A stretch of DNA of 9,849 nucleotides from Actinomycetota bacterium. Lineage in GTDB: Bacteria; Actinomycetota; Actinomycetes; Mycobacteriales; Mycobacteriaceae. The notes below the pieces were generated by a model. It worked only from the letters and a program-made list of their open reading frames with translations, had not been told where the DNA came from and searched no databases. This document shows, one piece after another, positions 1 to 9,803 of the stretch. The translations under genes and the position numbers were made by a program. The stretch spans positions 1 through 9,849 of the forward strand of contig SYAB01000210.1 of the NCBI GenBank assembly GCA_005787665.1, given 5' to 3'. The stretch's first letter is position 1. Each line of letters starts with the position of its first letter.

Positions 1-46
1 CCGACGAACGCCTCAGTACCGACGAACGCCTCAGTACCGACGAACG
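1..46. repeat. 18-bp tandem repeat covering the 3' end and stop codon of ripC
   Basis: The unit CCGACGAACGCCTCAGTA occurs at 1-18 and 19-36, and its first ten bases recur at 37-46. On the minus strand each unit reads Val-Arg-Arg-Tyr-stop-Gly in the ripC frame. The final codons of the hydrolase and its TGA stop are therefore duplicated in frame. The unit length is six codons. The array touches the window edge, so its true copy number cannot be seen. An assembly artefact at this edge is also possible. Confidence 0.9.
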
Positions 47-1140
47 TTGTAGATCGGGGCGCTATGGACCGACTCAACCCGCACCGGAATGCCGTAGGTG
101 GAGGCGTGCACCATCATCCCGTCGCCGATGTAGATCCCAACATGTGAGGCATCGGAGTATTGGGTGACGACATCGCCGGGCTGCATCTGGTCGACGGAGA
201 CCGGCTGGCCGCCGGCAGCGAGCGCGTAGCTGGAGTGCGGCAGGAAAACCCCGGCCCGTTGGAAGGACCACATCACCAGGCCGGAGCAGTCGAATCCACC
301 CGGCGCGCCGCCGCCCCAAACGTAGGGGTCTCCGAGGCGGCTCAGGGCTGCCTGTACCGCGATGGCGCCGGCTCCACTGCCCCCACCGCCGGGCATCGGC
401 CGCGCGGCGAGTGCAGCGATGTCGCTGGAGGGCGCCGCCTCGGGTGCGGGCGCACCCGGGAGAGCGGCCGCCGGCGGCGCGGCGGGTGCGGCCAGGATGG
501 CCTGCTGGGCCGGTGTGAGCAGGGCGTAACGGGCTTTCACCACAGCGATCTGCGCCTGCAGTTCGGATTGTTTCCGCTGCAGGTCGGCCCGGACGGCGGC
601 GGCCTCGTCGGCGGCGGCCTTGGCGTCGGCGGCGGACTTGGCCGAGGCGGCTTCCACGACCACGGCCTCCTGGCCGACCCGGCGGAAGTTCGCCATCTGG
701 GCGGCCATCTCGATCCCCATCACCCGCTGTACCGACATCTTGTCGATCAGGCCCTGCGGTGACGCGGCGGTCAGGATGGCGTTGACACCGTCGGTGCGCC
801 CGCCCATGTAGACCGATGCGGCCAGCTTGTCCACGGAGAGCTGGTAGCCGGCCAGCTGAGCCCTGGCGGCCTCCAGCGCCGCGGTGTCGTCGGCATGCTT
901 CTGATCTGCCGCAGCCTGGAGCTGGACCTTCTGATCAAGGTCGAGTTGCGCGGAATGCATGGACTCGGTGAGCTGCTCGGCCTGCCGGGACAATTCGGTG
1001 ATCTTGGCCAACGCGTCCTCGGCCGGATCGGCGATCGCGGCGGTGGTCAAGAGGCTGGTGATCGCGGTGATGGCGGCGACGACGCCGATGAGCGACTTTC
1101 GAGTGACCAACTGAGCGAGAGAAGTGCGGTCAAACTTCAA
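31..1140 (-). CDS. ripC: RipC-like secreted NlpC/P60 peptidoglycan endopeptidase
   Basis: This is a predicted cell-wall hydrolase that cuts stem-peptide bonds in peptidoglycan outside the membrane. Starting at TTG 1140 it has 369 residues. Residues 16-37 are hydrophobic and end in an Ala-Ile-Ala signal-peptidase-like site before DPAED. Residues about 38-214 are Ala/Gln/Glu-rich helices that look like a coiled coil. An Ala/Pro/Gly linker follows, and the NlpC/P60 domain covers about 258-369. The catalytic Cys is C285 (in DCSGL), with His residues at H333 (SHVGIYIG) and H345 (VHAST). Gene order and sequence match M. tuberculosis Rv2190c (RipC), a family reported to be activated by FtsEX through the coiled coil. 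The frame is open up to 1284, but I prefer TTG 1140. AAAGGA lies 9 nt before it, it gives a clean signal peptide, and a good promoter lies inside the longer ORF. The 3' end is tandemly duplicated. Confidence 0.9.
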   Translation of the reverse strand: MKFDRTSLAQLVTRKSLIGVVAAITAITSLLTTAAIADPAEDALAKITELSRQAEQLTESMHSAQLDLDQKVQLQAAADQKHADDTAALEAARAQLAGYQLSVDKLAASVYMGGRTDGVNAILTAASPQGLIDKMSVQRVMGIEMAAQMANFRRVGQEAVVVEAASAKSAADAKAAADEAAAVRADLQRKQSELQAQIAVVKARYALLTPAQQAILAAPAAPPAAALPGAPAPEAAPSSDIAALAARPMPGGGGSGAGAIAVQAALSRLGDPYVWGGGAPGGFDCSGLVMWSFQRAGVFLPHSSYALAAGGQPVSVDQMQPGDVVTQYSDASHVGIYIGDGMMVHASTYGIPVRVESVHSAPIYNVRRY

Positions 1141-1149
1141 GATTTCGCA

Positions 1150-1155
1150 TCCTTT
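1150..1155 (-). promoter_or_regulatory. Ribosome binding site that sets the ripC start
   Basis: AAAGGA on the minus strand lies 9 nt before TTG 1140. No comparable site precedes the upstream in-frame starts between 1141 and 1284, so this site favours the 369-residue form. Confidence 0.6.
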
Positions 1156-1210
1156 GACTGCTGCCGACTCAACCCGTCGATCTGCTTTCGATGTGCCGTA
1201 GGTCTCAAAT

Positions 1211-1239
1211 AGGTTACGAAACGGCATCGGCTTTGTCCA
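1211..1239 (-). promoter_or_regulatory. SigA-type promoter for ripC
   Basis: On the minus strand, TGGACA (1239-1234, one mismatch to TTGACA) is followed after 17 nt by TAACCT (1216-1211, fitting TAnnnT). Transcription would begin near 1204, giving a leader of about 64 nt before TTG 1140. A GTAAC pentamer (minus strand 1217-1213) overlaps the -10 box. It resembles one half of the GTAAC-type sites described for the regulator MtrA, but no second half-site is obvious. The rest of the 174-bp gap between ripC and the small gene shows only short GC-rich hairpins. Confidence 0.5.
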
Positions 1240-1314
1240 ACGGGGGGCGAAGGAAAAGCGAGAAACTTGCGCCCCTCTGGTCACACCGAGACCGGCTCGG
1301 CCGGGCCGTCCAAC

Positions 1315-1545
1315 TCAGCCGGCCAGCCCGGACGTCCCGTCCCGGCGAATCGGAACCAGCCGTAGCCGTGGCGCGAGACCCACATCCGCAAGCACCTCCA
1401 GCGCTGCCCGTTCATCCTGCAGCAACGTCTCGGGAACGCCCAGCAGCACGCTGACCACACAGTCCCGGCAACCCGGACCACGTACCGCGCATTCGTCGCA
1501 GTCGATCGTGACCGGCTCACCCGCCGTCGAGTCGAGATCTCCCAT
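1315..1545 (-). CDS. Small CxxC-x6-CxxC protein of unknown function
   Basis: The product has 76 residues. The start at ATG 1545 is well supported, because AAGGAGG lies 8 nt upstream, whereas the in-frame extension to 1656 has no such site. Residues 16-29 hold two CxxC pairs (C16/C19 and C26/C29) separated by six residues, a spacing typical of a small zinc- or iron-sulphur-binding knuckle. The C-terminal half (about 33-65) looks helical, with an acidic stretch followed by a basic, Leu/Arg-rich end. There is no signal peptide or membrane segment, so it is probably cytoplasmic. I recall similar short proteins annotated as hypothetical in actinobacteria, but I know no function. Its promoter matches the RecA-independent DNA-damage motif, and it diverges from a repair-type nuclease, so a role in the damage response is a reasonable inference. 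Nothing in the protein itself shows this. Confidence 0.8.
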   Translation of the reverse strand: MGDLDSTAGEPVTIDCDECAVRGPGCRDCVVSVLLGVPETLLQDERAALEVLADVGLAPRLRLVPIRRDGTSGLAG

Positions 1546-1553
1546 AACGCTCT

Positions 1554-1560
1554 CCTCCTT
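1554..1560 (-). promoter_or_regulatory. Strong Shine-Dalgarno site of the small CxxC gene
   Basis: AAGGAGG on the minus strand lies 8 nt before ATG 1545. It is a near-perfect anti-16S match and fixes the start of the 76-residue protein. Confidence 0.85.
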
Positions 1561-1591: not shown

Positions 1592-1614
1592 ACCCTAGAA
1601 GGACCCACCGACAA
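1592..1614 (-). promoter_or_regulatory. RecA-NDp / PafBC-type DNA-damage promoter for the small CxxC gene
   Basis: On the minus strand TTGTCGGTG (1614-1606) is followed after exactly 8 nt by TAGGGT (1597-1592). This is a full match to TTGTCRGTG-N8-TANNNT, the motif of RecA-independent DNA-damage promoters in mycobacteria, later assigned to the PafBC activator. Transcription would begin near 1585, giving a leader of about 40 nt with a strong Shine-Dalgarno site. The upstream half lies partly within a perfect inverted repeat, CCGACA-ACC-TGTCGG (1608-1622). Confidence 0.75.
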
Positions 1615-1657
1615 CCTGTCGGGCACGAACGAACACATCCGGCGCGGCGAACGCACC

Positions 1658-1680
1658 GTGTCGGTGGGGGTGCCTAGCGT
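1658..1680 (+). promoter_or_regulatory. RecA-NDp / PafBC-type DNA-damage promoter for the DnaQ-GIY-YIG nuclease
   Basis: GTGTCGGTG (1658-1666, eight of nine matches to TTGTCRGTG) is followed after exactly 8 nt by TAGCGT (1675-1680, fitting TANNNT). The -10 box ends 8 nt before the GTG start at 1689, so the transcript should begin at or within about two bases of the start codon. That implies a leaderless mRNA. The same motif lies on the opposite strand at 1592-1614, which makes this a divergent damage-promoter pair. Confidence 0.7.
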
Positions 1681-1688
1681 CGGTCACC

Positions 1689-3596
1689 GTGGACGGCCCC
1701 GGCAGTGAACCGCAACTGAGCTTCTCGTTCCGCGACGCCGACCTCTCCGAAGCAACCGCACTGGGGGCCGCCGCCGACACCGCACTGCGCCAGACCACCT
1801 TCGTCGTCGTCGACCTCGAGACCACCGGCGGTCGTGCCCGGCCCGGCGCCGACGGCCTCGGGGATGCCATCACCGAGATCGGCGCGGTCAAGGTGCGGGG
1901 CGGCGAGATCATCGGGGAGTTCGCCACCCTGGTCGACCCCGGCCGTGCCATCCCGCCCAAGATCGTGGAACTCACCGGCATCACCACCGCCATGGTGCGC
2001 GACGCTCCTCCGATCACCACGGTGCTTCCGATGTTCCTCGAATTCGCCCACGGGTCGGTGCTGGTCGCCCACAACGCCGGCTTCGACATCGGGTTCCTCG
2101 CCGCCGCCGCCGCGCAGTGCCGGATCGACTGGCCCCGTCCGCCGGTGGTGTGCACGGTCCGGTTGGCCCGCCGGGTGCTCAGCCGCGAGGAGGCGCCCAG
2201 CGTGCGGCTGTCCGCCCTGGCACGGCTGATCGGCGCCGCGACACAGCCCACCCACCGCGCGCTCGATGACGCCCGGGCCACCGTCGAGGTGCTGCACGCC
2301 CTCATCGAACGGGTCGGCAACCAAGGGGTGCGAACACTCGGGGACCTGATGTCCTACCGACTCAGCGGCGGCCGCAATACCGGCCCCAACGGCGGTCAGG
2401 GCATTCGCGCGAAGCGTTCCCTGGCCCGTGGGCTGCCGCACCGGCCCGGGGTCTATCTCTTCCGCGGGCCGTCGTCCGAGGTCCTCTACGTGGGAACCAC
2501 CGGCAACCTGCACCGGAGGGTCGGCCAGTACTTCACCGGCGGCGATCCCCGGGGCCGGATCAACGAGATGGTCGCCCTGGCCACCGGGGTCGACCACGTC
2601 GAGTGCGCCCACCCACTGGAGGCCGGCGTGCGCGAGCTACGCCTGCTGGCCGCCCACGCCCCGCCCTACAACCGGCGGTCCCGCTTCCCGCACCGGTGGT
2701 GGTGGGTGGTGCTCACCGACGAACCCTTCCCACGGCTGTCGGTGGTTCGCGAACCGCGCCGCCCGCGCGCCGTCGGCCCGTTCCGGTCGCGGGCAGACGC
2801 GGTCGACGCCGCCGGGGTGATCGCCCAGTTCACCGGGGTGCGAACCTGCACCAGCCGGATCGGCAAGGGGGGCGAACACGGCCCGGCGTGCCCAGCGCGG
2901 GAGGTTTCGCCGTGCCCGGCCGGGCGCGGCCTCGACGCCGCACGGTACGCCGAGGCGCCGAACCGGGCCGCGGACCTGATCGACGGGCTCGACGACGCCG
3001 CACTGTCGGCAGCCGTCCAGCGGGTCGCCGACCTGGCCGGGCGCACCCGGTACGAGAGCGCGGCCCGGTTGCGAGACCTGACCGCCTCGACCGTGGAGGT
3101 GCTCTGGCGCGGCCAACGGCTGGGTGCCCTGGCCGCGGTCGAGGAACTGGTCGCGGCCGCGCCCGACGACGCCGGCGGCTGGCACCTGACGGTGGTGCGC
3201 TACGGACAACTCGCCGCCGCCGGCCGTGCCCGCCAAGGGGTACCGCCGATGCCGGTGGTCGACGCTCTCCGCGGCGGCGCTCAGGTAGTGCTGCCGCGAC
3301 CCGCCCCGCTGGGCGGCGCACTGGTCGAGGAAACCTCGCTGATCGCCCGTTGGCTCAACCAAACCGGAGTCCGGATCGTTTGCAGTACAGGAGTTTTCGC
3401 TTCGCCGCACCGCTCCGCCGGCCGTTGGCTGCACTGGGCGGCCGCCGCGCGTTCAGCGCGGCACGCCGCCTCAGAGTTGTTGGGTGAAGCGCACCCAGCG
3501 GTCCAGGAGACGTTGCGCGGCCCCGGAGTCGATCGCCTCGGCGGCCCGGCTCAGCCCGTCCTCCCAGGACGGCAGCCATTCGGCATGACTGGATAA
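1689..3596 (+). CDS. DnaQ-type exonuclease fused to a UvrC/Cho-like GIY-YIG nuclease
   Basis: This 635-residue fusion is probably a DNA repair nuclease and corresponds to M. tuberculosis Rv2191 by position and length. Residues about 36-210 form a DEDDh 3'-5' exonuclease with D42, E44, D133, H189 and D194 (the HRALDD box). Residues about 248-330 form a GIY-YIG domain: GVYLF 254-258, LYVGT 266-270, R276/R277, acidic candidates E311 and E316, and a terminal YN at 327-328. C387, C401 and C409 match three of the four UvrC iron-sulphur ligands. A UVR-like helix pair follows at about 443-473. The RNase H-like nuclease and helix-hairpin-helix of full UvrC are absent, so it should make one of the two UvrC incisions at most, as Cho does. 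Its GTG start has no Shine-Dalgarno site and lies just downstream of a damage-type -10 box. Its last 126 bp overlap trpD tail to tail. Confidence 0.9.
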
Positions 3597-9047: not shown

Positions 9048-9803
9048 TCACCCAAGTCGGTACAGGTCGGCGGCGTTGCGCCACAAGACATTCTCCTGTT
9101 CACGCTCATTCATCCAGGCCCCGAGTGAGGTGAGGTCGGAATCGGCGAACGGCCGTCGGGCGCGGGTGGAGGGCAGATCGGTACCGAAGACCAGGGCATG
9201 CGGATTCGCGTCGAGGATCTGCCGCATGACCGGCTCGGGGTCGAACTCGATCCGCCCGAAACCGGTGGCCTTGACGAACGCGCCGGCGTCCACCATCGCC
9301 AGCAGGGCCGGCAGGCCGTCACGGCTCAGCCCGAGATGATCGACGCTGACGGCTGGGAGCCTGGACAACACGGGATACAACTCCGGCAGACCTGCGGCGT
9401 CGATGTAGAGTTCGACATGCCAGTCGGCGATCTCGTGAACCCTGCGTGCCAGACGGTCGAGATCCCGTAGATCAGCTGATCCCCCGCGTGCCACGTTGAA
9501 GCGCACCGCCCGCACCCCGATCGCGTCGAGCGCGAGAATCTCCGCATCGGCGCTCGTCGCGGGGATCTGGGTCACCCCGACGAAGCTGGGTCCCAGCTCC
9601 TGCAGGGCGGCGCGAAGATAGCGTTGGTCGAATCCCTGAAACGAGCCGGAGACCACCGCGCCGCCGGTGACTCCAAGGCCCGCGACCCGGTCTCGGTAGT
9701 CCGCCACGGTGAACGGCGGCGGCAAGTAGCCGTTGTTCGCCTGCAGTCCGAACCGGGGATCGATGATGTGCAGGTGCGCGTCGAACACGCGGGCCTCAGG
9801 CAA
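9048..9803 (-). CDS. Amidohydrolase-2 family TIM-barrel hydrolase
   Basis: This is a 251-residue metal-dependent hydrolase of the amidohydrolase superfamily, in the group that includes 2-pyrone-4,6-dicarboxylate lactonase (LigI). The substrate cannot be told from sequence, but a small dicarboxylate lactone or related ring-cleavage product is plausible. Visible landmarks are the N-terminal H10-x-H12 (FDAHLHI), R101 (VRFN), E131 (VELYID), H156 (VDHLG), K178 (VKATG), D209 (FGTDLPS) and a terminal RNAADLY. There is no signal peptide. The start is not settled. TTG 9803 overlaps the stop of the upstream gene by 8 bp and has no clear Shine-Dalgarno site. GTG 9788 (246 residues, beginning just before FDAHLHI) has GAGG at 5-nt spacing and may be the better choice. 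It converges on qcrB and is probably co-transcribed with the gene upstream of it. It is not part of the Rv2190c-Rv2196 block. Confidence 0.85.
   Translation of the reverse strand: MPEARVFDAHLHIIDPRFGLQANNGYLPPPFTVADYRDRVAGLGVTGGAVVSGSFQGFDQRYLRAALQELGPSFVGVTQIPATSADAEILALDAIGVRAVRFNVARGGSADLRDLDRLARRVHEIADWHVELYIDAAGLPELYPVLSRLPAVSVDHLGLSRDGLPALLAMVDAGAFVKATGFGRIEFDPEPVMRQILDANPHALVFGTDLPSTRARRPFADSDLTSLGAWMNEREQENVLWRNAADLYRLG

Follow-up and report, generated by a model that had tools for sequence, protein, structure and literature searches.

For the 9,849-nt stretch of actinobacterial DNA analysed here (the window), we found that the gap between a small four-cysteine (Cys4) gene and the nuclease gene dnaQ-uvrC is best read as two back-to-back PafBC-dependent sigma-A promoters, separate modules answering to a shared regulator, with the Cys4 gene as an old member of the regulon; we put the probability of this reading at about 0.9. 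The original prediction, which had seen in this gap one damage promoter of the mycobacterial RecA-NDp type per strand, is right on the sequence and very probably right on the regulation too. The promoter type is already known, and it is the Cys4 gene that most deserves further attention.

From left to right, the mycobacterial gene content consists of a RipC-like NlpC/P60 peptidoglycan hydrolase (31..1284, minus strand), the small Cys4 gene (1315..1545, minus strand) and a DEDD exonuclease/GIY-YIG (UvrC/Cho-like) fusion of 635 aa that opens with GTG (1689..3596, plus strand). Beyond the nuclease lies a minus-strand ORF that we read as trpD (Glycos_transf_3 match), followed, as judged by eye, by a cytochrome oxidase/bc1 cluster. 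The small gene encodes 76 aa with a CxxC-x6-CxxC core, its ATG at 1545-1543 and its stop at 1317-1315, and has a Shine-Dalgarno sequence, AAGGAGGAG, at 1552..1560 on the minus strand. It stands directly upstream of the hydrolase, a match to which occurs in most order-level loci, and read-through from the small gene could possibly render the hydrolase damage-responsive as well. An Rfam scan of the window gave no match.

The promoter assigned to the small gene occupies 1592..1614 on the minus strand and reads, from 1614 to 1592, TTGTCGGTG-GGTCCTTC-TAGGGT, with zero mismatches to the consensus; its -26 element TTGTCGGTG lies at 1614-1606 and its -10 element TAGGGT at 1597-1592. The promoter assigned to dnaQ-uvrC occupies 1658..1680 on the plus strand and reads GTGTCGGTG-GGGGTGCC-TAGCGT, with the -26 element GTGTCGGTG at 1658-1666, the -10 element TAGCGT at 1675-1680 and a single mismatch, in the first letter. 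This mismatch carries little weight, because that letter is variable across 78 mycobacterial dnaQ-side sites (C 43, G 15, T 13, A 7). The spacer is 8 nt in both sites, counted from TTGTCRGTG to TANNNT (as a core, TGTC-N12-TANNNT), and the sites stand back to back, their -26 elements 43 bp apart. Positions, mismatch counts, spacing and the outward orientation towards the small CxxC gene and the DnaQ-GIY-YIG nuclease all agree with what had been predicted. As an alternative, SOS (LexA) boxes were sought with the pattern TCGAAC-N4-GTTCGA at up to two mismatches; the gap held no match, and two weak ones lie at 9400 and 9748.

That such sites are chance matches in GC-rich DNA finds its one foothold in the window scan, where allowing two mismatches gave three matches, the shuffles averaging 1.00; this count is only mildly above the shuffles and a weak result, with 12 of 200 shuffles reaching three. 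A matrix built from other loci, window excluded, gave the two sites the two highest scores in the window (29.4 and 20.9, the next being 4.4), a result that is partly circular because the training sites had been picked by consensus; the lower score sits at the 5th percentile of those sites. Conservation at one fixed spacing refutes the chance reading, to which we give next to no credence. Our near set comprised 81 loci, namely the window plus the 80 best-ranked of 410 related loci, these 80 having 63-78% identity to the window over the best nuclease segment. In this set the core TGTC-N12-TANNNT precedes dnaQ-uvrC in 81/81 loci (one of them also having it with N8) and the small gene in all 80 that could be tested, L077 being cut by a contig end, against 1/396 shifted control windows; these loci are kin, so the counts are not independent, a point that the distant sets described below answer in part. 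A scan of the gap at up to two mismatches found both sites in 75 of the 81 loci, and among random 320-bp windows 0/7519 held both. With the 8-nt spacing, the same loci gave 45 zero-mismatch sites in 25.7 kb of gap against one in 735.6 kb elsewhere, 132 against 2 at up to one mismatch, and 157 against 31 at up to two; at other spacings (5-7 and 9-11 nt), matches with up to one mismatch numbered 3 in the gap and 22 elsewhere. For the two outside matches at up to one mismatch, the displaced small-gene sites in loci L052 and L074 account, since those sites fit the pattern and fall outside the gap. Loss of both motifs in relatives, which the original prediction had named as counting against it, was not seen: the sites recur with a constant spacing and the correct orientation, and their distance to the start codons is suitable.

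This distance is most telling for the nuclease, whose GTG lies 8 nt after TAGCGT in the window. Throughout the near set, window included, the dnaQ side has a single core site per region (81/81), and an in-frame ATG or GTG follows its -10 element by 6-9 nt in 81/81 loci (6 nt in 19, 7 nt in 29, 8 nt in 31 and 9 nt in 2), against 53/1620 in the shifted control. A stricter count, which took the first in-frame start including TTG and sites with up to two mismatches, gave 76/79 in the same set; the exceptions, L001, L004 and L074, have one start at 1-2 nt and another at 7-8 nt after the -10 element. Among 33 distant order-level loci with a dnaQ match, the dnaQ core site is present in 27 and absent in six, and it is followed at 6-8 nt by a start codon in 27/27, the distance nearest 7 having been taken where a locus had several sites. 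Since the 81/81 near loci have an in-frame start 6-9 nt after the -10 element, the nuclease mRNA is probably leaderless and would begin at about 1689. The small gene, by contrast, has a leader, with its Shine-Dalgarno sequence and a 46-nt stretch from the -10 element to the ATG, and the claim that both sites are well placed for their genes fits these distances. The nuclease itself matches PF00929 (E 6e-37) and GIY-YIG at 20.5 bits, below Pfam's 22.6; for NCBIfam, PRK07883.1-3 scores 844 bits, above its cut-off of 508, and PRK07883.1-1 scores 1015, below 1038. It carries a DEDD exonuclease and a GIY-YIG domain in one chain and so belongs with the Cho-like+Exo/PRK07883 proteins. Excerpts of PMC1564403 describe the Cho-like+Exo family of GIY-YIG nucleases as Actinobacteria-specific exonuclease-GIY-YIG fusions, and the window nuclease is like them in its N-terminal DEDD exonuclease, its GIY-YIG domain and its UvrC-type similarity; against those excerpts we noticed no difference in the protein.

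For the small gene, we followed the site into more distant genomes. The gene was found in 190/249 genomes of the order (E 0.001, the weakest hits being partial) and in at least 62/296 genomes of the phylum (E 0.001), the latter a lower bound with up to 20 candidates scored per genome. The order set consisted of 61 loci (L110-L170), drawn from 30 loci listed for the 190 genomes and 60 picked from the listed matches; the phylum set consisted of 20 loci, namely the 30 listed for the 62 genomes with a match, minus 7 that were Mycobacteriales or repeats and 3 in which the gene was not placed. The core site stands upstream of the small gene in 59/61 order and 16/20 phylum loci and is missing from two and four, respectively, against 1/301 and 0/100 shifted controls; with N8-N11 or N13-N16 in place of N12, no match was found in these 61 and 20 loci. 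The core had been chosen after viewing the mycobacterial sites, and shifted, opposite-strand and other-spacing controls were applied to it. On the opposite strand the core pattern occurs in 9/61 order and 2/20 phylum loci, and the strict consensus with up to one mismatch in 4/61 order loci; a plus site at up to one mismatch stands in as many, L138, L149, L162 and L163, with dnaQ adjoining in all. Counting mismatches to the strict TTGTCRGTG gave 40/61 order loci at up to one and 46/61 at up to two, against 0/298 and 3/298 shifted windows. We dropped this count as a measure, as it understates distant sites, which include the variants TGTCGGACCCC, TGTCGTACCCC and TGTCACACCCC; variants like these recur upstream of recA.

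As a yardstick we used recA itself, in 40 genomes picked from those with the small gene, of which 39 had a hit and 38 were used, the partial G515 being left out. Within up to 515 bp upstream of recA the core pattern is present in 19/20 order and 16/18 phylum genomes, with similar lineage variants, and these 38 stretches showed no opposite-strand match and none at N9-N11 or N13-N15. By this comparison of sequences, the small-gene site, where the gene is present, appears to be kept about as often as recA's. In relative G001 we found 10 strict matches and followed up 9, determining ORF starts for part of the sites; 7 precede ORFs with a Pfam match, which are RecA, UvrB, LysM, a glyoxalase and DUF222 three times (once with HNH). 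No Pfam match was obtained for the remaining two: behind one is an ORF, broken off early, that to the eye begins like UvrA, and the other (L212) is without a convincing gene. At G001:C1:1319862 (L204), the glyoxalase-family ORF has its ATG 6 nt after the strict site. Among strict matches in six genomes, the sole divergent pairs within 200 bp were at the window-type locus, in two genomes. That the motif is of the mycobacterial RecA-NDp type, as first proposed, is supported by its -26 core TGTC, its 8-nt spacing and the presence of the same site class before recA and uvrB in relatives.

Each promoter is a unit of its own that goes with its gene, as seen where inserted genes part the two in L074 (2272-3741) and L052 (2048-3631) and each gene retains its own site. 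By eye, the insert is an IS110-type transposase in L074 and a lyase-like gene in L052. We had considered a coupled loss of small gene and site in these two loci and rejected it, both being present and merely displaced by the inserted gene. Of the distant loci that match dnaQ, 33 in all, dnaQ is adjacent to the small gene in 11 and lies 0.9-1.8 kb away in 22, and its site is present in 9/11 and 18/22, respectively; in six distant loci the spacer held, by eye, an NYN-like ORF in five (one confirmed, PF05991), and L137 showed none. These layouts bear on the idea that the nuclease promoter alone matters and that the small-gene site is carried along through the shared gap, an idea to which the failure to find a known family or function for the small protein lends some colour. 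We regard it as very unlikely, since the small-gene site is found in most order loci with the nuclease about 0.9-1.8 kb away, is kept on the far side of the inserted genes of L052 and L074, and stands in 16/20 phylum loci whose scanned neighbours differ. The phrase "co-regulated damage-response pair" fits in the sense of a shared regulator, though the two promoters are distinct and each remains beside its gene where the genes are parted. The divergent pair recurs in a distant actinobacterium, at L174 (1752-1837), where one 23-bp promoter sequence is present in two outward-facing copies that form a perfect inverted repeat; an ATG lies 7 nt after the right-hand -10 element, and on that side there is a DEDD/GIY-YIG ORF.

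We take MSMEG_4259 and Rv2191 to be the orthologs of the window nuclease. A damage response of the nuclease agrees, weakly, with two literature excerpts, namely an M. smegmatis table in PMC9416677, which has MSMEG_4259 as "DNA polymerase III, epsilon subunit" beside recA and ruvC, and a line in PMC10178195 that puts Rv2191 among H2O2-activated genes. PafBC is described in part of PMC11804915 as a case of sigma adaptation activated by ssDNA, and the M. tuberculosis motif is given in a portion of PMC8151990 as TGTCGG-N10-TA-N3-T; taken together, excerpts of these two papers and of PMC6789036 and PMC8223512 link the motif with PafBC, and the activation of PafBC with ssDNA. The sites could instead be read mainly by another factor, ClgR for example, or by constitutive sigma-A in a manner that is not damage-specific, and PMC5656591 discusses earlier work in which ClgR recognised the same P1 motif. 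We consider this improbable: the sequence is of the same site class as that upstream of recA in small-gene genomes, excerpts of PMC8151990, PMC6789036 and PMC8223512 tie the motif to PafBC, and a crude scan of 1400-1800 found no sigma-70-type -35/-10 pair. In G001, we read two ORFs downstream of a Pup-ligase gene as pafB and pafC. PafC hits (one-protein query, E 1e-20) occurred in 56/62 small-gene genomes against 106/234 others, an association (Fisher p 2.5e-11) that is confounded by kinship and genome completeness; 6/62 small-gene genomes had no PafC hit, and these may be incomplete.

The sequence of events we propose begins with DNA damage, upon which ssDNA would activate PafBC, and PafBC would dock the housekeeping RNA polymerase at each promoter, on its -26 element with the TGTC core and its TANNNT -10 element. 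The rightward mRNA, probably leaderless, would encode a 3'-5' exonuclease/GIY-YIG incision nuclease; the leftward mRNA, with a leader and a Shine-Dalgarno sequence, would encode the 76-aa Cys4 protein, which may bind zinc or an Fe-S cluster and whose gene would be an old member of the PafBC regulon in Actinobacteria. The window sites share with known PafBC/RecA-NDp promoters the -26 element, the spacing to TANNNT and the site class found before recA and uvrB in relatives; they differ in standing two back to back, in the probably leaderless rightward mRNA and in having an uncharacterised Cys4 protein as the leftward target.

Small Cys4 proteins are, as a class, zinc or Fe-S micro-proteins, with which the window protein has the CxxC-x6-CxxC core in common; unlike them generally, it has no Pfam or NCBIfam model, searches of both having matched no family, and no assigned fold, its AlphaFold model being poor (mean pLDDT 53). 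Its relatives number 1740 at E 0.01 or better and at least 5344 at 1e-5 with a broader profile. Among the papers listed in our literature searches, we saw none on the small gene. Flanking ORFs in deep lineages (20 of 36 scanned, 13 loci) include DEDD/GIY-YIG, NYN_YacP, DUF3071, CNNM, a kinase, a transposase and others, and such varied neighbours do not settle the function of the small gene. In two deep-lineage loci, L187 and L201, the ORF adjoining the small Cys4 gene is a DUF3071 ORF, presumably the cell-division protein SepH.

From the fixed 6-9 nt between -10 and start codon one would predict that a repair nuclease is made, upon damage, from a leaderless message. For the leftward gene, a known promoter type leads to a conserved, unnamed four-cysteine protein. 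We lean, by a small margin over even odds, towards the view that this micro-protein is an ancient core part of the actinobacterial PafBC response, with a promoter kept, where the gene occurs, about as faithfully as that of recA and a role in DNA repair or damage signalling, such as that of a partner or switch that binds metal, and that it has been overlooked because it is small and without a family model. Its damage-type promoter is kept, across the sampled genomes, much like recA's, and the Cys4 protein is therefore a strong candidate for an overlooked part of the main mycobacterial DNA damage response.
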